The notes below the pieces were generated by a model, which made no database searches, was not told the DNA's origin, and saw only the letters and a list, made by a program, of their open reading frames with translations. The position numbers were made by a program, and so were the translations under genes. DNA of 43,745 nt from Pseudomonadota bacterium (GTDB lineage Bacteria; Pseudomonadota; Alphaproteobacteria; Rhizobiales; Xanthobacteraceae), in assembly GCA_016195095.1 (NCBI GenBank), contig JACQAE010000178.1:1-43745 (forward strand), in the 5' to 3' direction. Of this stretch, positions 4,206-15,294 are shown one piece after another (position 1 is the first letter of the stretch; each line of letters opens with the position of its first letter).

Positions 4206-4709
4206 TCAGGGCTTGACGTAGCTCCAGCCCTGCTCCTGCAACTCGATCAAGCGGACGACGCCAGATTCCACCGACTTCGCGCTATGCACGAGCGGAATGT
4301 CCATGGCCTTCTTGCCTTCCGCGCGCGCCATGTTGGTGCGTGTGTTTTCGCAGGCGGAAAACGTCACGTTCGGCATGCTCTCGGAAAAGGATTTCAGGCG
4401 ACCCTGCACCTGCGCAGGCGAGGTGTCGGAGCGCAACATGTGCAAACCCGGGCCGTAGGCGACGATTTCGATTTCAACCTCCTCGCCCTTGTCGGTAAAG
4501 TGCTTGCTGACATTGGCGGCGTTGTTGAGGGCAAGATTCATTTTCTGCGCGTCGTTGTCGTCAACGTGAATCGCCAGGCGATGCGCTTTCTTGTCCTTGG
4601 CCGCGGTCGGGCTTTGAGCCGAGGCCAGGGATAACGCCGATGCCAACGAGCCGATGGCCACCGCGGTGGCGGCGAACACGCGGCGGCGGCTGAGCGATGA
4701 CAAATTCAT
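4206..4709 (-). CDS. Exported DsrE-family protein
   Basis: A 167-residue protein with an AGGGAGA ribosome site upstream of the ATG at 4709. Residues 1-32 are a signal peptide; the SRRRVFAATAV start resembles a twin-arginine signal but could also use Sec. The mature part shows the DsrE/DsrF-like alpha/beta fold: HRLAIHVDDNDAQKMNLALNNAANV, then VEIEIVAYGPGLHML and FSACENT. DsrE-like proteins act in sulfur relay or related small-molecule chemistry. Only one cysteine (in FSACENT) is present, so a persulfide role is possible but unproven. It is monocistronic, followed by a hairpin terminator. Confidence 0.8.
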   Translation of the reverse strand: MNLSSLSRRRVFAATAVAIGSLASALSLASAQSPTAAKDKKAHRLAIHVDDNDAQKMNLALNNAANVSKHFTDKGEEVEIEIVAYGPGLHMLRSDTSPAQVQGRLKSFSESMPNVTFSACENTRTNMARAEGKKAMDIPLVHSAKSVESGVVRLIELQEQGWSYVKP

Positions 4710-5028: not shown

Positions 5029-7155
5029 TCAGGGTACGGAACGCCCACGCATGGCGACCAGCGTCTCACGCAGGTCATTCACCGTCGTCGCCGGCAGCGA
5101 GCAAACCTGCCCGACACAGACATAGGCCGTCGCGCGCCCGCCCTCCTGATCCTTGAACCTGGCCGGATGCGACTGCGGCAAAACGGCGCCGGGCGCGATG
5201 ACCTGCAGGACGCGGCCGGGCAGCGACGTGTGCCAAGCCGTGGCAAGCAGCGTCTGCGTGTCCGCCTGCGCGCGATCACCGACGATGACGATCTGCATGG
5301 CCGCCATCAGTGTATCCGCGGCATTGAGAATGCCACTCGATTGCAGCGGGTCGCCCTCGGCGGCACCAAAGAACGCGCCAACCGCGCGTTCGGCGCGCGT
5401 GCGCAACAAGGGCTCGCCGGTCAGGTGATACACACGCATCACGACGTCGGCCATCACGGCGTTGCCGGCGGGAAGCGCGGTGTCGACAGCGACCTTCGCC
5501 AGCGGCAGCTGCGGCAGGTCCGGCCGGGCGGCGAGAAAATATCCGCCTGGACCATCGTCCCATAATGGCTCGGCCGCCGCAATCCATGCCCGCGCCGCGG
5601 CAAGGTATTCGTCCTTTCCGGTCGCTTCGAACAGGATGACGGCCGCCCGCGCCATCTGGGCAAAATCGTCAAGCGTCGCAGGAAGGCCCGACCGCGCGGC
5701 GCTCCAGGAATGGCGCAACCCAGCTGGACCGTCGAGATTGGTCCGCACAAAGGCGAACGCTGCTTGCGCAGCGGTAAGCCAGACGGGCTCGCCGAAGGCG
5801 GCGCCAGCTTCCGCCAGCGCCGCGATCATCGCGCCGTTCCAGTCCGCCAGCACCTTGTCGTCGCGGCGTGGGCGCGGGCGCGTATCGCGAACCGCCCGCA
5901 GCCGCGCGCGCGCCGAAACAAGACGGCTTGCGAGCTCGCCTTCCGCTGCGCCGAACCGTTCGCGCAGCGCGGCCATGGAGGGCTCGGCAAGATAAAGTAC
6001 GGACATTCCCTCCCAATTGCCCTCGGCGGTGACGCCGTAAACGCGCTTGAACAGGGTCGCATCCTTACCGAGTGCGCGGTCGATCTGCGCGTCGGTCCAC
6101 ACATAAAACGCTCCCTCGCGCCCTTCGCTGTCGGCGTCGATGGCCGTGGCAAACCCTCCGCCAGGCAGGCGCATTTCGCCGAGCACGAATGCAACGCTCT
6201 CGCGCAGTCGCTCCGCCAGCAATGGCGAGCGTGTTTCGCGCCACACGTCGGTCATCAGAGTGATAAATTGCGCGTTGACGTCGAGCATCTTCTCGAAATG
6301 CGGAATGCGCCATTCCGGGTCGGTCGTATAGCGGGAAAAGCCGCCGCCAAGGTGGTCGTAGAGGCCACCTCGCGACATCGCGTCGAGGGCATGCGAAACA
6401 GCTTCGCGCAATGGCGGCGAGTTCTTGCGCAAATATCCCCGCCACAGCGACTCGATCGCGGTGAGGCGGGGAAATTTGGGGGCGGCGCCAAATCCGCCAT
6501 TGAACACGTCGACATTCCGGTTGAGCTCGGCGACCGCCCGCTCCAGCGCCGCGCGCGAGGGTTCGCCGGGCTCCGGCTTGAGCCGCTCGCGCAGCGCGCC
6601 ACCGAGTGCCGCGCTGATGGCGGCGACCTCACCATGCTGCTCGCGATAAGTTTCCGCTACGACGCCGAGCGCCTCGGTGAAGGGTGGCAATCCCTGGCGC
6701 CGTTCGGGCGGCAAATAGCCGACCGCGAAAAATGGCACGCCGTCCGGCGCGAGAAATACGTTGAGTGGCCATCCCGTCTGCGAACCAAGGAGCGAAGCCG
6801 CGCGCTGATAGATGTCGTCAATCTCAGGCCGCTCCTCGCGATCGACCAGGACCGGGATGAAATTTTCGTTGATCATCCGGCCAATGGTGGCATTGGCGAA
6901 GCTCTCCGATTGCAGGACGTGGCACCAATGGCATGCGAGATATCCGATCGAGAGCAAGATCGGCTTTTGCGTTCGCTTGGCCTCGGCCAACGCCTCAAGG
7001 CCCCATGGCCACCAGTCAACGGCATCGCCGCGATGCGATTGTAGGTAGGGGCTCGCCTCCCCGGCAAGGCGGGGCGCGGCTGTTGCGGCGCCAATGGACG
7101 ACACGGCGACAAGCACCGTCGCAAGCGCGGCAAGCCATCCGCGCCAGCCTGACAT
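5029..7155 (-). CDS. Exported thioredoxin-fold DUF255 protein (YyaL/SPATA20-like)
   Basis: A 708-residue protein. The ATG at 7155 opens a signal peptide ([20 protein letters not shown], cleaved near residue 27); the longer frame upstream lacks any family similarity. Residues 33-195 form the DUF255 thioredoxin-like domain, with SPYLQSH, AVDWWPW and the cysteine motif ACHWCH (Cys75, Cys78), then the conserved [10 protein letters not shown] and [13 protein letters not shown]. The rest is an alpha/alpha-barrel like N-acylglucosamine 2-epimerases ([37 protein letters not shown]). The family is widespread but its reaction is unknown; thiol-disulfide chemistry coupled to a sugar-like substrate has been suggested by fold only. 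Many members are cytoplasmic, so the signal peptide here is a notable variant. Confidence 0.88.
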
Positions 7156-7500
7156 AACCGGCGCGCCATCGGCAAAGGCGGAATCCGATTTTGCATCCGA
7201 GTGTATCTTGTCCACGTATCGTGGCCGCGACTTTCGACGGATAGCCAATTTCCACGGCGTTGAAGCGTGCCGCAATCCTCGCTGCAACCGCCACCCGGAC
7301 ACGTCCATCTGCCGCTGCTCCCGCCGTGACCCAACCCTGTAAACCACGAGAGCAGATTCTGGCGCAGTGGCAGCGGGTTCGCCACAAAAAACGCACCGAA
7401 CACGAGGAGTTGAGCGCTCTTGGACTCGTAAACCGCAATTGTGGGGTATGCCAATTTTCGCGACACTTGGCGTCGCGCACGCAACCCATTCATCTTATGG
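7156..7500. other. Gene-free stretch
   Basis: It lies between the start of the DUF255 gene and the end of the diheme peroxidase gene, both on the minus strand. A short inverted repeat (CGCGAC/GTCGCG around 7460-7477) sits just past the peroxidase stop but has no T run. No gene or clear promoter was seen. Confidence 0.4.
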
Positions 7501-8655
7501 CTACTTGAACGTTCCGCTGGTCATCGGAAACTCCAGCACCCCATAGGGCGGCAACGTCGGACGCTCATGCCGCAGCTCGGTGCCGCTCAACGATTCAAGG
7601 AACGATACGAGGTCGGCTTTCTCCTGCCCGGAGAGGCGCAACGGCGTGATGAGGTCAGACTTCGTGCCGAACGAATCGGCGTCGCCGCCGCGATCGTAGA
7701 AGTCGACGACTTCCTCAAGCGTGAAAAACACGCCGTTATGCATATAGGGCGCGGTATAGGTCAGATAGCGCAAGGGCGGGGTGCGGAACTTCCCCAGGTC
7801 CTCGTCTTTCTTGGTTTCAAGATAGCGGCCCGGGTCGCGATCGAACTTGAGATAGACCTGTTCGGGAATTCCCTTGCCGCGAATGCGCTCGCGCATGGCG
7901 ATCTGGCGTTGCGGATTTGTGACAAATTCCGGATTGGGGGGAACGCCGATATTGTAGTGCTGCTCATCGGTAAGAAGCGCGCCGTTATGACAAGCAATGC
8001 AGCCGGCCTTGGTTTCAAACAGCGTGCGGCCTCGCTGCTGGCCGGCCGTCATCGCGGTACGGTCACCGCGCACGAACCGGTCGAAGGGCGCGTCGTTGGA
8101 GGTGACCTTGCGCTCATAGGCGGCGATCGCCAGCATGGCCTTTTCCCAGGACGGCTTCTCACCGTAGACGCGCTGGAACAGATCGACATAGACCGCGATC
8201 TGCTTCATGCGCTCCTCGCCGAGCCTAGGCTGGATATTTCCGGCAAGCGCGCCGGTGGCGGCTGAATGCGCCTGGGCTTCCAGCGTCGATGATCCGCTGC
8301 CCCAGAAAAAATTCTTCAGATAGGCGGAATTCACCACGGTTTGCGAGTTGCGCCAATGCATCGTACCTGGATATCCGCGCGACAGCGCATTGCCGTCGCC
8401 CCAGCCCTTCTTGGGATCGTGACAATCCACGCAGCCGATCGAGCCGTCGCCGGACAAGCGCGGATCGAAGAACAGCAGTTCTCCAAGCTTGACGCGATCC
8501 GCGGTCAACGGCTGGTCAGGCGGCACCGGTACCGCGGGCAGCGCGGCAAGCGGCGCTGGCTGCTTCTGCGCGTGAACGCTGCGCATTGGCCCGGCCAACA
8601 GCACGGCTACAATGCCGACCGTGAAAAGAGCAAAGACTGCTGATCGTGGATTCAT
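7501..8655 (-). CDS. Diheme cytochrome c peroxidase / MauG-family protein
   Basis: A 384-residue periplasmic protein with a signal peptide (about residues 1-29, ending VHA). It carries two haem c sites, CVDCH (75-79) and CIACH (219-223), and the peroxidase signatures LGELLFFDPRLSGDGS, RNSQTVVNSAYL and TAPYMHNGVFFTLEEVVDFY; Met305 in PYMHNG is a candidate distal ligand. CcpA/MauG relatives reduce H2O2 or oxidise protein or small-molecule substrates using electrons from small cytochromes. It is the last gene of the operon that begins with the ECF sigma factor, 15 bases after the cupredoxin-like gene. In iodate-reductase loci, peroxidases of this class accompany the Mo-enzyme, presumably to detoxify reactive products. 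That parallel is inference here. Confidence 0.9.
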   Translation of the reverse strand: MNPRSAVFALFTVGIVAVLLAGPMRSVHAQKQPAPLAALPAVPVPPDQPLTADRVKLGELLFFDPRLSGDGSIGCVDCHDPKKGWGDGNALSRGYPGTMHWRNSQTVVNSAYLKNFFWGSGSSTLEAQAHSAATGALAGNIQPRLGEERMKQIAVYVDLFQRVYGEKPSWEKAMLAIAAYERKVTSNDAPFDRFVRGDRTAMTAGQQRGRTLFETKAGCIACHNGALLTDEQHYNIGVPPNPEFVTNPQRQIAMRERIRGKGIPEQVYLKFDRDPGRYLETKKDEDLGKFRTPPLRYLTYTAPYMHNGVFFTLEEVVDFYDRGGDADSFGTKSDLITPLRLSGQEKADLVSFLESLSGTELRHERPTLPPYGVLEFPMTSGTFK

Positions 8656-8670
8656 GTTCTTGTCCGATCG

Positions 8671-9432
8671 CTATGCGCCAAAGGAGATCGTCGCCGCTGC
8701 CCTCGCCTTGGACGCGACTTTTGCGCGCGTGCTCATGCTCCCCAGTCCGGGGTGCCAAGCCACCAGTTCAAATTCGCCAGCGGGAACGTCGTCGATCGCG
8801 AATCGCCCCGCTGAATCCGTGACCGCGACGTAGGGGTGATCGGAGGTGACGATCCAGGCCGACATCCAGTTATGCGCGTCGCAATCGATCTCGATGATGC
8901 TGCCGCGCGTGAGCGCGACCTTGTGCCGATCGACCTGGTTGGCCTGCGGCTGCGCGATATTGAACAGGGTGCGGCGCGCGCGGCCGATGATTTCATAGGC
9001 ATGAATGTTGTGCAGCACCGGGTCCTTGTTAAGGATGCTGAGTTCGAAGCTCCTGGGCGCGAACTGAATGTAGGGATGGAAGACGCATTTTTCCTGCACG
9101 ATGTCGAACCGCTCGCGCTTGGCCCAGGGCTTGCCGCGCGCGATGTCCTTAATCATGACGACCGCGTTCTTGAGGCCGCGCTCATCCGATAGCGTCACCG
9201 GGTCGGGCGTCGCATGGCCTTCGCCGCAGATATGATTGTCCTTGCCGATGATGATCTGCTCCGCCGCAGAGAGATTGTCGCCGACGCGCACGATGCCGTC
9301 GATGCCGCCGCCGATTACCGCACCCGGCACATAGGAACTCGCTTGCGCCAATGCCGCGCCCGCAAGCGCGAGGCTGCCGCCGCAGGCTGCAAAGCCCATG
9401 GACGCGCCAATCATGTCTCGTCTGCTCAGCAT
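8671..9432 (-). CDS. Cupredoxin-like 'methylamine utilization' family protein, Tat-exported
   Basis: A 253-residue protein. The ATG at 9432 opens MLSRRDMIGASMGFAACGG, a twin-arginine signal; the frame extends upstream without similarity. The mature region has the family pattern NAVVMIKDIARGKPW, PVLHNIHAYE, then IEIDCDAHNWMSAW followed by HPYVAVTDSAGRFAIDDVP and ELVAWHPGLG. The Cys-x2-His-x2-Met cluster and the upstream His residues look like a copper-site loop on a beta-sandwich, followed by a carboxypeptidase-regulatory-like beta domain. Database annotation usually calls these 'methylamine utilization protein', but no methylamine dehydrogenase genes are here, so the name should not be read as function. 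It probably carries electrons or binds metal between the cytochrome and the peroxidase. It is separated by 128 bases from the cytochrome gene upstream. Confidence 0.8.
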   Translation of the reverse strand: MLSRRDMIGASMGFAACGGSLALAGAALAQASSYVPGAVIGGGIDGIVRVGDNLSAAEQIIIGKDNHICGEGHATPDPVTLSDERGLKNAVVMIKDIARGKPWAKRERFDIVQEKCVFHPYIQFAPRSFELSILNKDPVLHNIHAYEIIGRARRTLFNIAQPQANQVDRHKVALTRGSIIEIDCDAHNWMSAWIVTSDHPYVAVTDSAGRFAIDDVPAGEFELVAWHPGLGSMSTRAKVASKARAAATISFGA

Positions 9433-9482
9433 CTTTGCCTCAACATATTTCCGCGCCGCGAACCCTATTTGGAAGTTCGCCC

Positions 9483-9513
9483 ACCCTTCGGCCGGGTAAC
9501 GCCCTGCCGAAGG
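9483..9513. repeat. Intra-operon hairpin between cytochrome and cupredoxin genes
   Basis: Perfect 9-base arms CCCTTCGGC (9483-9491) and GCCGAAGGG (9505-9513) enclose a 13-base loop. It lies in the only long gap (128 bases) of the Mo-enzyme operon. There is no T run, so it is more likely an RNA-stability or attenuation element than a full terminator. Confidence 0.5.
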
Positions 9514-9560
9514 GAGGGAATTGCGCACGAGGCGGAAGCCGACCTCGGCGCATGATCGGT

Positions 9561-10304
9561 TCAACGCTTGGCGAGCGAGCGCACATAGTGAACCACGGCC
9601 CAGATTTCGTCGGGCTTGGCCTGGCTGGCATAGGAAGGCATCGGCGTGCCATCGAGGCCGGTGGCGATGCGCGCATAAAGCGCCTTCGCGTCGTCGCCGC
9701 TCTTGAAGACACCGGTGGTAAGGTCGGGCGCCCAGATGCGTCCCTTGGCATCGTCTTTAAGCGTCAGCGAGGACGCGCCATCGCCGGTTCCGGTGTCGCC
9801 GTGACAGGTCTGGCACTTGAGCGCCGTGTAAACGGTTTTGCCTTTTTCCAAAAGCGCCGCCGAGACTTCGGGCGCGGCCGGGATCGCGATCGGACGCGGC
9901 GCCGTCTTGATATCGGCGAACTGCCTGACCACGCCGACCAGCGCCCGCCGGTCGGCCTCGGGCAGTTCTCGAAACGACGGCATGGCGGAATGGGCGATGC
10001 CCTGCGTGATCGTGCGCAACAGGTCGTCGTCAGTCGGCGGCTGACCGCTTGGCGTCGTGCGCAGCTTGAACACGCCGAGGATGAAATTGCGCGGCTTGGG
10101 GTTGACGATGTGCGCCCCAGGGCCCTCGCCGTCACCCTTGACGCCATGGCAGGCGGCGCATTCGCGCGCGTAGATTTCCTTGCCCTTGGCGAGCGAGGCC
10201 TGTGCTCGGCCCGGCCGCTCCGCCGCCGGCGCGGACAAGGCGCTGGCGCCAAGGAGCGCGGACGCGAGCAAGAGCATGCCGGCAGCGGATCGATGCGATA
10301 TCAT
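9561..10304 (-). CDS. Periplasmic diheme cytochrome c
   Basis: A 247-residue protein whose ATG at 10304 follows an AGGGAGG ribosome site; it starts 10 bases after the stop of the Mo-enzyme gene. Residues 1-28 are a signal peptide. Two class I cytochrome c domains follow, with haem motifs CAACH (49-53) and CQTCH (164-168) and methionine ligands in SAMPSF (Met108) and TPMPSY (Met222). Its place directly behind the Rieske/Mo-enzyme pair makes it the obvious electron partner. Electrons could pass between the Rieske subunit and this cytochrome and on to either an oxidase or the diheme peroxidase. The direction of flow cannot be told from sequence. Confidence 0.9.
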   Translation of the reverse strand: MISHRSAAGMLLLASALLGASALSAPAAERPGRAQASLAKGKEIYARECAACHGVKGDGEGPGAHIVNPKPRNFILGVFKLRTTPSGQPPTDDDLLRTITQGIAHSAMPSFRELPEADRRALVGVVRQFADIKTAPRPIAIPAAPEVSAALLEKGKTVYTALKCQTCHGDTGTGDGASSLTLKDDAKGRIWAPDLTTGVFKSGDDAKALYARIATGLDGTPMPSYASQAKPDEIWAVVHYVRSLAKR

Positions 10305-10314
10305 GTCCGCCTCC

Positions 10315-12921
10315 CTAACCGATGCTGCGCGGAACAAACGACATGCCGCCTTCGAGCTTCTTCAGCGGCGTCTCGCCGATCTTGGCCACCCTGCCCTTGC
10401 CGAGCTTGTAGTTGTAAACGCCGGTGACCGGGTCGGTGATCGCCGGGACGACGTTGTTGGCGTTCTGCCCGGGATAGAAGGTGTAAGTATAGGCAACGCC
10501 CGGCGCGACTTCGTCGGTGACATAGGCGACGAGCGAGATCGCCCCCTTGGTCGCCTCACCCAGAATATTGACGACGAAATCGTTCTCGACGCTGACCAGA
10601 TCGCCGCTCTCGATGCCGCGTGGCATCGCGTCGGCGGCATTGATGAAGAGAAAATTCGACGGATAGCGCCGCTTGACGGCGGCCTTGCGCAGATCGTCAT
10701 ACATCGTCTGCCACAATTCGTTGATGCGGCCATTGGTGATCCACAGCTCGCCGTCGCGTGGCGAAAAGCGCTCGCGCACCGGCTTGACGCTGCGCCAATC
10801 GCCCTTCATCAGGATCGCCTTGCCGCTCGCCGTGTTGAACTGCTTGACGATCTTGTTGGCGTCCTTGTCGGCGGGAAAAGTCTGGTCGTGCAGGCGATCC
10901 GTACCCACCAGTTTGCCGGCCTCGATGCGGGCCGGAAGCTGGATGCCGGTCGTGCTGAGTTCGGTCAGCAGGTCATGGGCGCGCTTGCCCGTTCTTTTCG
11001 CTAGTTCGACGACGGCGGTCGCGTCATAGGCGCCGCCCTTGGACTTCGTGACCGCTTCCTCAAATACGTCGTTGGAAGTCTTCCACGCGTAGCCGCTATA
11101 GCCCATCTTCTTGGCGACTTCGGCCACGATCCACCAGTCGGGCTTGGCCTCGCCTGGCGCGTCATAGAATTTCGAGTAGATGCGCAAGCGGCGCTCGCCC
11201 TGCGCGCGCGCGAAATTTTCCTCGCCCCAACCCGCCGCCGGCAGAACGAGGTCGGCATATTCGGTGAGATCGTTCTGGTAGATGTCCTGCTGAATGAGCA
11301 CCATGCCGCCATTGTCGACGCGCTGCTTGAGCGTCGCGATGGCTTGGTCCTTGTCGAAGGAGCTGACCTGCGCGGCGTGCTGGCGGGTAAGCGCGGCAAT
11401 CTTGTCGCGCAGTGATTGCCCCGCCGACAGCGCGGTCACCCAGGTCGTTCCGATGGCCCAGGTCAGCCGCGTCTTGCCTTCGAACACGGCGAGATCGGTA
11501 TTGAGCGGTATCTTGCCGCCGCTCGGATCGCCCGGCTTGACGTCATGATAGACCGCGTTTGACTTCGCCAGCGGATAGCCGGCGGCTTTCATCATTCCGC
11601 GCTGGTGCCCGCCGGCGCGTGACATGACTTGGCCCGGTCGGCCACCCGCGCCGCAAACGAGACCAAGCGCGGAGAGCGATGCGCTGTTGGGAAAGTTGAA
11701 CGACCAGTAATTTCCCTTTTCCAGGAGGAATGACGCTTTCGGGCGGACCTGGCCGCGCGGGCGCGCGATGAGCTCGGCGGCGCGAAGAATTTTTTGCGCC
11801 GGAACGCCGGTGACCTTCGCGACATTGTCGAGCCGGTATTCGTCGTCGGCGATGAGCCAGGCCTTGTACTCGTCAAAGCTCAGACCGAAACGCGCGCGCC
11901 GCCAGTTGGACTTCTCCTGCGCGATCTCCGCCCGTCCGGCGATGACCTTACCGATCCACGCGCGATCCTCCCAGCTATTTTCAAGAATGACGCGCGCGAT
12001 GCCGTTGTTGAGAATGGAATCCGTGCCCGGCAGCAATTGCAGATGGACGCCATCGGTGCGCTCGGCATAGGCCGCGGTCGGGCTCTTGCGCGGATTGACG
12101 AACACGATCTTGGCGCCGCCGGGCGCGATCCATTCGGTGAATAGGATCGTCTGGTTCTCGTAGGGGTCGTTGCCGCTGATGTAGATGACGTCGGCTTCTT
12201 TCCAATCCTTGTAGGCGGCCGAGAAACCGTCGACGCCGCAATCGTCGAGGCCGGTGGCGTCGTTTTCCGCGGTTGGCTTGTCGTGCTCGGCGGCGTTCGG
12301 CGTGCCGACCGAGGCGAAGGCAAGCTTGGTGATCGCGTAGGTGTTCTCCCAGAAGTGATACGAAAAAAAGCGCGTCGCCCACGACGCCTCGCCATGCCTG
12401 GCGATGACGTGCTTTGACACCTCGGCGACGATGCTGGTCGCCGCGTCCCATGAGATGGGCAGCAACATGCCGCGCACGCGCAGCAGCGGCGTTTGCAGGC
12501 GATCGGCCGTCGGCCGCGTCGGATTATAGAGTTTTTGCGCCAAAGCACCGCCGCGCACGCTGTGATTGCCCTGGCGGTTGACCGCGTTCTCCCCGTCAGG
12601 AACGATGACCACGTGGTGCAGCTTGCCGTTGCGCTTGACGACATTGTGCATGCTGGGGCTGATCCAGGCGCCCGTCGCCGGGGCGACCGGGAAGTCGGCG
12701 CGCAATGCATTGCGCGCGGCTTTCGACCCGCCCTCCTCGTCATGCGGCCACACATAGGCCTTGTAACCGCAGCCGACGATGCAGTATTCGCACGCCGTCG
12801 GAAAAACCTCTGCATTCGCCGGCGGCACGGGCACCTGGTCAACGGGTATTTCGTAGGTCGCGAAATCAATGCTCGGGGTGCGCGCGGCGAACAGGTCGCG
12901 GCGGCTAAATTTGCGCTGCAT
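10315..12921 (-). CDS. AioA/IdrA-like molybdopterin oxidoreductase large subunit
   Basis: An 868-residue DMSO-reductase-family enzyme. Two ATGs are adjacent (12924, 12921); the second is better spaced from the AGGAGG at 12927-12932. The N-terminal cluster motif CEYCIVGC (Cys44, Cys47, Cys51), with Ser121 in GNHSVRGG in place of a fourth cysteine, is the arsenite-oxidase pattern that binds a [3Fe-4S] cluster. WPHDEEGG, IVPDGENAVN, EWIAPGGAKIVFVNPR and the Arg435/His439 pair in SRAGGHQRG also match AioA. The loop that in AioA supplies arsenite-binding His195 eight residues before Glu203 reads RFFSYHFWE here (184-192): the Glu is kept, the His position is Arg. There is no own export signal; export with the Tat-signal Rieske subunit is expected. 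Likely a periplasmic oxyanion oxidase or reductase of unknown substrate; iodate reductase is the best-known alternative. Confidence 0.88.
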   Translation of the reverse strand: MQRKFSRRDLFAARTPSIDFATYEIPVDQVPVPPANAEVFPTACEYCIVGCGYKAYVWPHDEEGGSKAARNALRADFPVAPATGAWISPSMHNVVKRNGKLHHVVIVPDGENAVNRQGNHSVRGGALAQKLYNPTRPTADRLQTPLLRVRGMLLPISWDAATSIVAEVSKHVIARHGEASWATRFFSYHFWENTYAITKLAFASVGTPNAAEHDKPTAENDATGLDDCGVDGFSAAYKDWKEADVIYISGNDPYENQTILFTEWIAPGGAKIVFVNPRKSPTAAYAERTDGVHLQLLPGTDSILNNGIARVILENSWEDRAWIGKVIAGRAEIAQEKSNWRRARFGLSFDEYKAWLIADDEYRLDNVAKVTGVPAQKILRAAELIARPRGQVRPKASFLLEKGNYWSFNFPNSASLSALGLVCGAGGRPGQVMSRAGGHQRGMMKAAGYPLAKSNAVYHDVKPGDPSGGKIPLNTDLAVFEGKTRLTWAIGTTWVTALSAGQSLRDKIAALTRQHAAQVSSFDKDQAIATLKQRVDNGGMVLIQQDIYQNDLTEYADLVLPAAGWGEENFARAQGERRLRIYSKFYDAPGEAKPDWWIVAEVAKKMGYSGYAWKTSNDVFEEAVTKSKGGAYDATAVVELAKRTGKRAHDLLTELSTTGIQLPARIEAGKLVGTDRLHDQTFPADKDANKIVKQFNTASGKAILMKGDWRSVKPVRERFSPRDGELWITNGRINELWQTMYDDLRKAAVKRRYPSNFLFINAADAMPRGIESGDLVSVENDFVVNILGEATKGAISLVAYVTDEVAPGVAYTYTFYPGQNANNVVPAITDPVTGVYNYKLGKGRVAKIGETPLKKLEGGMSFVPRSIG

Positions 12922-12934
12922 CATCGCCTCCTGT

Positions 12935-13516
12935 TCAACCGCGCATTGTGGGTGTCTTCGCACCCTCGGCGAGCGAGCCGTCCTTCAGATTGTGGCGGTA
13001 GCCGTAAATCAGCCCAGCAACCCGCACCGCGAACACGTCGTCGCCAGCAATTTCGAGCACCACCTGCGGCAAGCTCTGGGTGGCGCTCGCATGCACCGCA
13101 ACGCCGCCCCTCGTGAGATCAAAGGTCGAGAAATGAAATGGACATGGACCAACCGCCTTGAGATCATGGCGGTAGCGGCCGCGCAGATTGCCGCCCATAT
13201 GCGTGCACAGTGAGCTGAACGCGACGATGTCGTGATCGGGTCCGACGCCGCCTTGCGCGGGAGCGCCGAGTTTGACGATGAAATTCGGCTGCGCTTGGAG
13301 CGGATAGGTGAATGCCAGCGGCACGCCGTCGTGCAACTCGCCGATACGCACAACGCGCTTGCGCGGATAGGCGACACCCTCGCTCGCGCGCTGCGCGCTG
13401 GCGGCGCCGATGGGCGCGACCATGCCGGCGATTATGCCACCACCACCCGCCAACAACGCATCGCGACGCGTCAGGCAAGCAGCATGATCGCAGGCGGTTT
13501 CCTTTTCGGCGCTCAT
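12935..13516 (-). CDS. Rieske [2Fe-2S] subunit, AioB/IdrB-like, Tat-exported
   Basis: A 193-residue protein starting at the ATG at 13516 behind GGGAG. It has a twin-arginine signal (LTRRDALLAGGGGIIAG, residues 15-31, cleaved near 41). The Rieske ligands are in LCTHMGG (Cys104, His106) and GPCPFH (Cys125, His128). Surrounding segments GVPLAFTYP, GGVGPDHDIVAFSSLCTH and AVRVAGLIYGYRHN are those of arsenite oxidase small subunits. The usual disulfide cysteines next to the cluster are Gly109 and Phe127 here, as in some AioB proteins, which is expected to affect redox behaviour. The gene is 13 bases upstream of the Mo-subunit gene and 26 bases downstream of the anti-sigma gene, so the two subunits are co-expressed and probably co-exported. 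Confidence 0.88.
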   Translation of the reverse strand: MSAEKETACDHAACLTRRDALLAGGGGIIAGMVAPIGAASAQRASEGVAYPRKRVVRIGELHDGVPLAFTYPLQAQPNFIVKLGAPAQGGVGPDHDIVAFSSLCTHMGGNLRGRYRHDLKAVGPCPFHFSTFDLTRGGVAVHASATQSLPQVVLEIAGDDVFAVRVAGLIYGYRHNLKDGSLAEGAKTPTMRG

Positions 13517-13542
13517 CACCACACTCCCTTCATGAAAACAGG

Positions 13543-14511
13543 CTAGCGGACCGCGCAGGGACAGGTCGCATCTGGCTGCGATTGGGTGATGGCGTAGGCG
13601 CCCACCATGGCAATTGCGCGCGATCGCAGCACGCGCGTATCGTGGCCCTGACCCCAGCTCCGCCGCAGGTCGGTCGCGGCGCGCAGCAGCAGCGTTCGCG
13701 GCAGATCCGCCACCAGCGCGAAAGCGAGCGTGCCTTCGCGCCAAATCAAGCTGGTGTAGCCCTTGTGCTCGCGCACGGAGACGTTCCAATCGTCGATACG
13801 CTCGTCGCCGGCACTGGGAATTTCCAGCGACTCGCCCGACATGACGTAGAGCGACACGACATTTTCGCCCTTTTGGTACATCAGCGCCGACAGACGCCGA
13901 TTGAGGAAGTAGCAGAGCCGCGCGCCAACCAGCCGATAGCCGTCAATGCGCGCCGCCGGCGCCGGCGGATGAAAATCGAGCTTGTCCGCCCACCAGTCCG
14001 CGACCAGGCGCGGACTTTCGCTCGCCAAGTCGAGCGGCCGGTGGCTGGCGCGGTAGGTAATCAGGTCGTTGATCGGCTCGCGCACGAGCGCGGTCATTTG
14101 CCCCTCAGCGCGCCGCGCGAACGGGTCCGCCAATACGATCGCGACGATCAACAGCGCGGCGGCGGCGAGGCCGATCGCGGCGCGTGCGGCAAGCGGGCGA
14201 GCGATCGCCGCAAGCAGGGCAAGGCCGTTCGCGCTGCGCGTCCTCGACGGTGACGTTGCCATGGCGCGCCGCAGCTCGTCGGCGTCGAGCGCATTGGCAA
14301 CGTGCTGCCACAGCAGGTCGGGCGCCGCGTCACTCACATGCGCCGCGCGCAGGTTGCCGTCGAGCCGGGAAATGGCGGCGGCCGCGTCGCGGCAGGATTC
14401 GCAGGAGCAGACGTGCCAATCGATTCCCGCTGGCAGCGGTTCACCAGGAAGCGCCGCGCGCAGATGCTCTCTCGCACGCGCGCAGGAAACGAGCGGCATG
14501 ACATTAATCAT
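13543..14511 (-). CDS. Zinc-finger anti-sigma factor with periplasmic domain
   Basis: A 322-residue single-pass membrane protein. The ATG at 14511 has a GGAGG five bases upstream and overlaps the sigma-factor stop by 8 bases, the usual translational coupling. Residues 33-40 (HVCSCESC) give the His-x3-Cys-x2-Cys zinc anti-sigma motif (His33, Cys37, Cys40). A membrane helix spans about 111-129. The remaining 190 residues are predicted periplasmic and would be the sensor; they contain a region with DWWADKLDFHPP, LVGARLCYF and SLIWREGTLAFALVAD, seen in anti-sigma proteins of this type. It should hold the ECF factor inactive until a periplasmic signal, perhaps the substrate or product of the downstream enzymes, is sensed. 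Confidence 0.88.
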   Translation of the reverse strand: MINVMPLVSCARAREHLRAALPGEPLPAGIDWHVCSCESCRDAAAAISRLDGNLRAAHVSDAAPDLLWQHVANALDADELRRAMATSPSRTRSANGLALLAAIARPLAARAAIGLAAAALLIVAIVLADPFARRAEGQMTALVREPINDLITYRASHRPLDLASESPRLVADWWADKLDFHPPAPAARIDGYRLVGARLCYFLNRRLSALMYQKGENVVSLYVMSGESLEIPSAGDERIDDWNVSVREHKGYTSLIWREGTLAFALVADLPRTLLLRAATDLRRSWGQGHDTRVLRSRAIAMVGAYAITQSQPDATCPCAVR

Positions 14512-15148
14512 CGCGGCCTCCGGCGAGCGCGGCGTGCGTGGATTGCGGCAGGGGCTTCACACTTTCCGGCGGTGCGAAATCCACCAGCGCCGCCTGCAGC
14601 AATTGACGCCCGCGGCTCAGCCGCGAGCGCACCGTACCAATTGGCGTTGCGAGAATGTCAGCGATCTCATCGTAACGGCACTCCTCGAGAATGGCGAGCA
14701 CCACGACCGCGCGGATGTCCGGCGACAAGTCGTCGATCGCGCGCAGGAGGTGTTCATAGAACGCGCGGCCATGCGCGCCGGTCTCCGGGTCGGCACCGGA
14801 CGCGGCGTGCAAAAGGTGCAACGCCTCGCCGTCATCGTCGGCGGATTTCGCGCACTCGTGCTCGAAAATCACATTGGTGGCCCTGCGCCGCACATTGTCG
14901 ATATGGGCGTTCATCATGATCCGCAGCAGCCAACCCTTGCCGTTCGCAACCTCGCCGGCGGCGGCGAAGGCGCGGAATGCTTTAAGACAGGTATCCTGCA
15001 CCAGGTCTTCCGCCGCCTCGCGTTGGCGGGTCATGCGCAGCGCCGTGCGGTAAAGCGCGCCGAGATGCGGCCGCGCCATCGCCTCGAACGCCTCGCGATG
15101 CCCGCAATCAACCAAAACTTTTGCTCCCCACAAGCGCGCCGACTGCAC
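14504..15148 (-). CDS. ECF RNA polymerase sigma factor
   Basis: A protein of up to 214 residues with sigma region 2 (LYRTALRMTRQREAAEDLVQDTCLKAFRAF, split here: LYRTALRMTRQREAAED then LVQDTCLKAFRAF) and region 4 (LEECRYDEIADILATPIGTV then RSRLSRGRQLL). The frame opens with GTG at 15148, which lacks a ribosome site; a TTG at 15115 has GGGGAG about 8 bases upstream and may be the true start. It overlaps the anti-sigma gene and heads the Rieske/Mo-enzyme operon. Such factors direct polymerase to promoters with a GGAAC-type -35, and a matching site lies upstream of this gene, which suggests self-activation of the whole operon. Confidence 0.9.
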   Translation of the reverse strand: MQSARLWGAKVLVDCGHREAFEAMARPHLGALYRTALRMTRQREAAEDLVQDTCLKAFRAFAAAGEVANGKGWLLRIMMNAHIDNVRRRATNVIFEHECAKSADDDGEALHLLHAASGADPETGAHGRAFYEHLLRAIDDLSPDIRAVVVLAILEECRYDEIADILATPIGTVRSRLSRGRQLLQAALVDFAPPESVKPLPQSTHAALAGGRDD

Positions 15149-15267: not shown

Positions 15268-15294
15268 TAGACGCAGCCGCGGGAAATTAGTTCC
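15268..15294 (-). promoter_or_regulatory. Putative ECF-type promoter of the sigma/anti-sigma/Mo-enzyme operon
   Basis: On the minus strand, GGAAC (15294-15290) is followed after exactly 16 bases by CGTCTA (15273-15268), the GGAAC-N16-CGT pattern of many ECF promoters in alphaproteobacteria. It lies about 120-150 bases upstream of the sigma-factor start and points into it. The neighbouring bases extend the -35 to AGGGAACTAATTTCCC, partly palindromic. Confidence 0.5.

Follow-up and report, generated by a model that had tools for sequence, protein, structure and literature searches.

A predicted ECF-switched molybdenum enzyme operon of the arsenite oxidase/iodate reductase family in a Xanthobacteraceae genome

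A recurring set of redox and regulatory genes

Contig JACQAE010000178.1 of a Xanthobacteraceae genome (assembly GCA_016195095.1) carries an operon-like locus for a molybdenum (Mo) enzyme of the arsenite oxidase (Aio)/iodate reductase (Idr) family. The whole stretch analysed, 43,745 bases, is referred to as the window. At 7501-15148 seven open reading frames, each intact, lie on the minus strand and encode an extracytoplasmic function (ECF) sigma factor (labelled ECF), an anti-sigma factor (ASF), a Rieske subunit (RIE), the Mo catalytic subunit (MOA), a diheme cytochrome c (CYC), a cupredoxin (CUP), and a diheme enzyme (PER) (Table 1). Their spacing is that of an operon: ECF and ASF overlap by 8 bases, and the gaps that follow are 26 bases (ASF-RIE), 13 (RIE-MOA), 10 (MOA-CYC), 128 (CYC-CUP), and 15 (CUP-PER). 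The likely starts of RIE (13516), MOA (12921), CYC (10304), and CUP (9432) were picked by purine-rich sites upstream. The close order of seven minus-strand genes given in a preliminary description of this DNA was recovered complete.

Table 1. Features of the locus in the window and the oxidase genes found in two related loci
Feature	Position	Strand	Basis or remark
Predicted ECF promoter, GGAAC-N16-CGTC	15270..15294	-	121 bases before GTG of ECF gene
ECF sigma factor (ECF), 214 aa from GTG	14504..15148	-	Sigma70_r2, Sigma70_r4_2; homologue in 6/6 relatives
Anti-sigma factor (ASF) with zinc-binding anti-sigma (ZAS) motif, likely transmembrane segment, RseB-like periplasmic domain	13543..14511	-	
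Rieske subunit (RIE) of twin-arginine translocation (Tat) type, 193 aa	12935..13516	-	TIGR02694; CTH...CPFH; Tat-like TRRDALL
Mo/[3Fe-4S] catalytic subunit (MOA), 868 aa, probable sister clade of IdrA	10315..12921	-	TIGR02693; trees; site residues
Diheme cytochrome c (CYC), 247 aa	9561..10304	-	two cytochrome c domains; homologue in 6/6 relatives
Amicyanin-like cupredoxin (CUP), C-terminal carboxypeptidase-regulatory-like domain	8671..9432	-	ligand residues; fold matches
MauG/MbnH-type diheme enzyme (PER)	7501..8655	-	CCP_MauG; Tyr320; tree
cbb3-like oxidase genes	L088:14224-22443		with Cox11, DUF4382 protein
cbb3-like oxidase genes	L089:14339-22605		with Cox11, DUF4382 protein

GTDB r220 genomes were scanned with an alignment of six relatives, and at least six loci with 62-70% Mo-subunit identity to the window were found among the best 80 of 562 relatives, a lower bound because only these 80 were retained. 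Five are from Alphaproteobacteria, namely Hyphomicrobiales OFTM207 (L088), Geminicoccaceae IP29b (L089), Alphaproteobacteria Dive100 (L090), Pelagibius sp. Alg239-R121 (L091), and Minwuiaceae PL23a (L093), and one is from a Granulosicoccaceae genome (L092); with the window they are called the window clade. Homologues of ECF, ASF, RIE, MOA, CYC, and CUP are common to all six relatives in the same neighbourhood. The ECF/ASF pair is divergent in L089, and in L093 the matches are partial (34% over 163 residues for ECF and 35% over 146 for ASF). Since the homologues are neighbours in six other genomes, a chance arrangement is disfavoured, and the seven genes form a recurring unit.

PER follows CUP in L090, L091, and L093; the L092 contig breaks off within CUP. 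Past CUP, L088 and L089 have other genes in an identical order: Cox11, DUF4382, a CcoN-like COX1, a FixO-diheme c fusion, a small protein, DsbD_2, and a copper ATPase. Between these two loci COX1 is 76% and the fusion 68% identical. Both COX1 proteins, at 224 and 226 bits, score well under the 583-bit cut-off of ccoN, and the oxidase is termed cbb3-like. A close PER is absent from both genomes, in which the best matches are partial at 38% and 41%, as against 63-66% for the orthologues in L090, L091, and L093. No CcoN-like COX1 was found elsewhere in the 110 sequences searched, L039 (the L088 contig) apart, nor in Idr-type loci within the flanks covered, and the window's genome gave no ccoN match. 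Thus the conservation of seven genes that had been proposed holds for six of them in 6/6 relatives, but not for PER, the slot of which is taken by a cbb3-like oxidase in two of the seven loci; the seven are not an invariant set. The diheme c domain fused to FixO in L088 and L089 is akin to the window CYC (43% and 41% identity).

In other scans, matches were found in 31 of 150 close relatives at 1e-20, in 26 of 397 genomes of the order and 11 of 385 of the class at 1e-120, in 2 of 398 of the phylum at 1e-240, and in one of four in the family of genome G126. The samples are overlapping, and the window's own genome is counted in the first four. G126, at 64-65% and on the same contig as L088, is the one window-clade member in these scans besides the window. 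Most loci derive from metagenome-assembled genomes (MAGs). At least three of the six relatives come from corals or sponge. Pelagibius Alg239-R121 is a cultured sponge isolate (PMC9860996), and the codes IP29b and PL23a denote coral-skeleton samples (PMC9868349).

The molybdenum subunit and its substrate site

Both subunits score over the cut-offs of their Aio families: MOA reaches 468 bits with the AioA-type large subunit TIGR02693 (cut-off 359) and has a Rieske_3 (3Fe-4S) domain, and RIE reaches 119.7 with the AioB-type small subunit TIGR02694 (cut-off 95.65). MOA is 47% identical to IdrA of Denitromonas iodatirespirans IR-12, a strain in which idrA has been knocked out (PMC8692401), and about 30% identical to AioA. 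The loops of RIE, CTHMGG...GPCPFH, are Idr-like (CTHMGG...GPCPLH) and are without the disulfide Cys pair of Alcaligenes faecalis AioB. In the window Mo subunit two arginines stand near the N-terminus (residues 7-8); RR is found here in 7/7 window-clade rows and 0/81 Idr-type rows. No hydrophobic stretch lies behind it in the window, and it may be a vestigial Tat motif.

Apart from the six relatives, the best 80 loci comprise 68 Idr-type loci, classed by identity and neighbourhood and in part placed in trees, and six loci with no peroxidase homologue in the sequence covered (noPER). Two trees of the Mo subunit were built, a quick one of 61 rows and a careful one of 39. L173, a long row apart from other AioA in the 61-row tree, was excluded from later trees. 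In the careful tree the seven members of the window clade are monophyletic (100/100) and lie outside IdrA and AioA (100/100); the 17 Idr rows form one group that excludes them (98/100). The window clade and Idr are joined at 89/81, and at 95 in the quick tree. The noPER rows form one group (96/95), which is probably the "unknown" clade of PMC8692401; the placed rows do not include the haloarchaeal members of that clade. AioA is distant, set apart by a branch about 1.6 changes per column long. Constraining the window clade to Aio, the same split as Idr with noPER, gave a borderline result in the approximately unbiased (AU) test (p-AU 0.044). MOA would thus be a sister branch to the iodate reductases, a relation that is not firm. 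The earlier view that the Mo/Rieske pair belongs to the arsenite oxidase group is upheld in a refined form, namely that the pair belongs to the Aio/Idr group as neither AioA nor IdrA: the phylogeny gives no placement inside AioA but a separate clade outside IdrA. Membership of the canonical IdrABP1P2 group was rejected, and IdrABP1P2 was retained as a functional analogue.

In A. faecalis AioA, three waters in the presumed substrate site bind H195, E203, R419, and H423, and C21, C24, C28, and S99 are named for the cluster (PMC3758308). The cluster residues C21-x2-C24-x3-C28 ... S99 are kept in all aligned rows. H195, R419, and H423 are kept in 7/7 window-clade rows and E203 is replaced by D in 7/7, so that three of the four residues of the arsenite site are retained. 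Position 203 is E in 13/13 AioA rows and in two intermediate rows, D in 6/6 noPER rows, and D (61), S (18), P (1), or A (1) in the 81 Idr-type rows, which are the 68 of the best-80 scan plus 13 others, some of them near-identical. MOA thus has the residues of an IdrA-type pocket (H195, D or S at 203, R419, H423). Moreover, the site loop HDKPTAENDATGLDD of the window is similar to HDKASATNDATGLDD of D. iodatirespirans IdrA.

These data bear on the simplest reading, that of a plain arsenite oxidase (AioAB), which the two family scores and the retention of H195, R419, and H423 would allow. The identity of about 30%, the long branch, and E203D speak against it, as does the lack of an ACR3 match in the window's genome (ArsB was not searched for). 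AioXSR regulation is common, though not universal, among arsenite oxidases. Neither AioX nor AioS was matched at E <= 0.01 in the window or in L088-L094, while the controls L170 and L176 were positive. AioR gave partial matches to receiver-like stretches, at 37.3-37.7 kb of the window (24%) and in L094 (29%). The statement that no AioX/AioS/AioR-type regulator lies here therefore stands for AioX and AioS, and is qualified for AioR by the match to a receiver-like stretch. By phylogeny, E203D, and the missing AioX/AioS, an arsenite oxidase proper was ruled out as a candidate, and an AioAB function is regarded as highly improbable.

Electron carriers, diheme enzyme, and regulation

A family scan found two cytochrome c domains in CYC. 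CUP has weak Pfam matches, with fn3_3 barely above and CarboxypepD_reg below the cut-off. Its residues H141, C184, H187, and M190 are invariant in 24/24 sequences and, with the predicted fold, would make it a type-1 copper protein of the cupredoxin kind; in the model (predicted local distance difference test score, pLDDT, 87) one domain best matches amicyanin (E 1e-4) and also pseudoazurin. Diheme c and amicyanin-like cupredoxin are likely soluble electron carriers. The copper loop CDAH[NSA]WM has a Trp in 7/7 window-clade cupredoxins and in 5/17 from Idr loci, of which 12/17 have Phe.

PER belongs to CCP_MauG (PF03150, 140 bits; CCP, cytochrome c peroxidase) and lies under the NCBIfam cut-offs (202 bits against 363 and 444). 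MauG uses a Tyr as ligand of its C-terminal heme. Tyr320 of PER aligns with a Met of the CCP chain 1eb7, whereas PDB 6e1c, a structure of MbnH, likewise has Tyr at this position. This MauG-type Tyr is present in 35/35 aligned diheme enzymes (4 of the window clade and 31 of Idr loci). Because Tyr stands for Met, the window and Idr diheme enzymes are grouped with MauG/MbnH and not with CcpA; of the MauG/CcpA-type peroxidase described earlier, the MauG half is retained and the CcpA half is not. The idr diheme enzymes have been described as related to cytochrome c peroxidases (PMC8692401, PMC11445184). In the PER tree the four window-type proteins (support 99) group with the 17 Idr peroxidases that are idrB-proximal (support 100), away from the 14 distal peroxidases. 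This tree makes PER the sister of the proximal Idr lineage and so links the locus to Idr a second time.

The Tyr suggests that PER could be a MauG-like maturation enzyme which oxidises the Trp of the neighbouring cupredoxin, rather than a peroxidase. This is compatible with the other readings and agrees with the copper-loop Trp of the window clade and with the adjacency of CUP and PER in the window, L090, L091, and L093. However, the Trp is present even in L088 and L089, which have no close PER, and the Idr loci whose cupredoxins mostly have Phe also encode Tyr diheme enzymes. A maturation role is therefore held to be improbable.

Further comparison was made with the 54 Idr-type loci in which the sequence reaches 6 kb or more upstream of the Mo gene. 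In 51 of these, two or more PER homologues lie upstream, while two loci have one and one locus has none; the window-clade loci, having one or none, lack this two-peroxidase arrangement. A CUP homologue is found upstream in 19/54 (for example L099, L100, L106, L107, L114, and L118), and an ECF homologue within 6 kb in one (L096, 29%). No ASF homologue was found in the 54 loci at 1e-6. Based on these counts, the ECF/ASF pair marks the window clade and the cupredoxin is shared with Idr. Idr loci had been thought to be without both: this is contradicted for the cupredoxin, which is of the same family, and agrees with the counts for the ECF pair. The IR-12 locus (L117) has two PER and no CUP match.

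The window ASF has no Pfam match, even at E <= 1. Its HxxxCxxC motif (H33, C37, C40), together with C200 and M224, is invariant in 8/8 aligned anti-sigma factors, and zf-HC2 is matched at E <= 1 in 5/6 relatives, in four of them over the cut-off. All seven Foldseek matches of its periplasmic part in the PDB at E <= 0.001 are RseB (E 1.2e-4, template modelling score about 0.25 both ways), from a model of moderate quality (mean pLDDT 66.5). As a lead only, an RseB-like periplasmic domain may point to envelope-stress sensing. The pattern GGAAC-N16-CGT[CT] has a single match in both strands of the window, upstream of ECF on its strand. Shuffling the window 30 times gave a mean of 1.03 matches on both strands, a chance rate at which about 90 would be expected in 3.8 Mb. 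A promoter-like site lies upstream of ECF in 6/7 loci (the window, L090, L091, and L093 and, with the first G replaced by C or A, L088 and L089), and no match was found there in L092. An extra site precedes RIE in L089 and L090, and matches elsewhere occur also in L089 and L093. The HxxxCxxC anti-sigma factor, the sigma factor regions 2 and 4, and the promoter-like site before the sigma gene are together those of a putative ECF/ZAS system, and the conserved pair with its common site argues for the ECF control that had been suggested. L090 has another such ECF/anti-sigma pair (534-2119) directly upstream of the first.

On the same strand of the window, 153 bases past PER, a DUF255/Thioredox_DsbH protein (TRX) is encoded at 5029-7347, and at 4206-4709 a small DsrE/DsrF-like protein with a signal-like N-terminus, slightly below the Pfam cut-off. 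No homologues of either were found by tblastn (E <= 1e-4) in the sequence around L088-L093, and because of this both were dropped as operon members. Delta-class carbonic anhydrases are best known from diatoms; one (PF10563, 228 bits) is encoded at 1345-2334 on the minus strand of this bacterial MAG.

Proposed function and comparison with known systems

The best explanation, held tentatively and just short of an even chance, is a periplasmic reductase, switched by stress and following the plan of the iodate reductases, for iodate or a similar oxyanion; the case of plain iodate as the substrate is included in it. It is favoured because the clade lies beside IdrA, PER is sister to the proximal Idr peroxidase, the pocket, site loop, and Rieske protein are Idr-like, and the cupredoxin family is shared. 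It is favoured also because relatives come from coral skeleton and sponge, while Idr of aerobic marine Alphaproteobacteria is iodate-induced. The idr genes of Roseovarius azorensis are induced by iodate, three such bacteria reduced 2 mM iodate in static and 0.1-0.5 mM in shaken cultures, and their Idr is mainly active under limited oxygen (PMC11445184, Kine et al.).

In the proposed mechanism, the RseB-like periplasmic domain of the anti-sigma factor would sense an oxidant or damaged envelope proteins and free the sigma factor. Electrons would then pass from quinol through bc1 to diheme c and cupredoxin, and through the Rieske and [3Fe-4S] centres to Mo, where iodate or a related halogen (possibly chalcogen) oxyanion would be reduced; this direction of flow is inferred. 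The diheme enzyme may clear peroxide or reactive halogen by-products via the same carriers. The cbb3-like oxidase of L088 and L089 may instead keep O2 low, or clear by-products, and a nearby high-affinity oxidase would also suit the static/shaken pattern described above. The role would be detoxification or a low-oxygen electron sink, rather than anaerobic growth.

Several observations weigh against this explanation. The sister relation to Idr is not firm, since a tree constrained to join the window clade with noPER was not rejected (p-AU 0.32). The pocket may differ from that of Idr because Q stands for N542 (A. faecalis numbering) in 7/7 window-clade rows, against N in 102/102 others, and F stands for N391, which is N in 81/81 Idr and 11/13 AioA rows and H in noPER. 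Two Idr insertions are missing. The first, near window residues 336-342, is lacking in noPER as well and varies in AioA; the second, after residue 794, is lacking also in AioA and almost entirely in noPER. One genome, the Minwuiaceae MAG, has both a window-type and a canonical idr locus: its second Mo gene, 48% identical to the window's, is placed within Idr. This gene shares 88% identity with L161 and about 80% with a Rhodobacteraceae locus, and its neighbours are a Rieske gene and two PER. Lastly, the B-A-cytochrome c gene order is that of aio operons, and a terminal oxidase in two of seven operons fits an electron-delivering enzyme. As for the double locus, a contaminating contig is possible, the genome being a MAG; if the coexistence is genuine, redundancy of the two systems there is improbable. 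The other six window-clade genomes have one Mo-gene copy each at 1e-40.

The aio-like gene order and the terminal oxidase are at the centre of an oxidative reading, in which a reduced inorganic donor would deliver electrons through the Rieske protein, diheme c, and cupredoxin to H2O2 at the diheme enzyme or to O2 at the cbb3-like oxidase, depending on the lineage. The cbb3-like set in the same place and order in L088 and L089, the lack of a close PER in both, and the absence of a CcoN-like gene from every Idr-type locus searched, within the flanks covered, agree with this. However, the pocket is Idr-like, the clade lies beside IdrA, the Idr system uses a peroxidase of this lineage, and a low-O2 oxidase could also shield an O2-sensitive reductase. 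We consider the oxidative direction somewhat unlikely but a serious rival. An ordinary iodate reductase, performing the IdrABP1P2 reaction under other regulation and with one peroxidase fewer, is part of the favoured reading and would account for the neighbouring clade, the shared loop, and the shared peroxidase and cupredoxin families. It is less easily reconciled with the fixed changes (Q for N542 and F for the Idr N, and also S for G637, which is G in 101/102 other rows), with the two missing insertions, or with the MAG that has both types, and taken by itself it is unlikely. It is possible, though short of probable, that the operon represents a third class of function within the Aio/Idr family. 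Its periplasmic Mo enzyme, under ECF control, would then act on an oxyanion new to the family, via diheme c and an amicyanin-like cupredoxin, with an exchangeable end module (MauG-type diheme enzyme or cbb3-like oxidase), and could occur alongside a true iodate reductase in one genome.

No description of the window clade was found in the open-access literature on iodate reductase, idrABP1P2, and arsenite oxidase, a body covered mostly at title and abstract level. A search for literature joining iodate, arsenite oxidase-like, and ECF sigma (any two) found none, and no mention of a cupredoxin was found in the accessible text of literature joining arsenite oxidase, cytochrome c peroxidase, and iodate. 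AioA and IdrA have been treated as one family (PMC10100899). Within the literature covered, arsenite oxidation and iodate reduction are the activities tested for it. A well-supported separate clade that has carriers, an end module, and a sigma factor of its own is the place to look for a third activity or for the step between the two directions of electron flow. Since the cultured Pelagibius sp. Alg239-R121 has all seven genes, induction and substrate are directly testable. Moreover, two findings bear on the role of IdrP1/P2: a third of the idr loci have the cupredoxin upstream, and the diheme enzymes of Idr have the MauG-type Tyr.

Among known systems, IdrABP1P2 (D. iodatirespirans IR-12, Pseudomonas SCT, R. 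azorensis) has the same Mo and Rieske subunits, site loop, proximal-lineage diheme enzyme, and cupredoxin family. The window system differs in its separate clade, one or no diheme enzyme, the ECF/anti-sigma pair, the diheme c directly after the Mo gene, the two missing insertions, and clade-specific residues. AioBA with cytochrome c (NT-26, A. faecalis) shares the B-A-cytochrome c order (NT-26), the cofactor motifs, and H195/R419/H423, whereas the window has about 30% identity to it, E203D, another Rieske loop, no AioX/AioS, and an extra cupredoxin and diheme enzyme. The noPER clade (Actinomycetota/Chloroflexota) shares D at 203 and the lack of the Idr insertions, but it is without a peroxidase homologue in the sequence covered, has a Rieske Cys pair (CTHMGC...CPCH, L094 and L144), and has H at window F408. 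MauG and MbnH have the same Tyr at the C-terminal heme, while the window PER falls below the NCBIfam cut-offs and stands in another operon context. SigF/NrsF is an ECF/anti-sigma system for oxidant stress; SigF/NrsF-like systems likewise combine a sigma factor and a membrane anti-sigma factor beside redox genes with a periplasmic-stress logic. The window anti-sigma factor is instead of ZAS type, with an RseB-like domain and no match to DUF1109, the domain of an anti-sigma factor sensing reactive chlorine species that is listed in PMC9751292.

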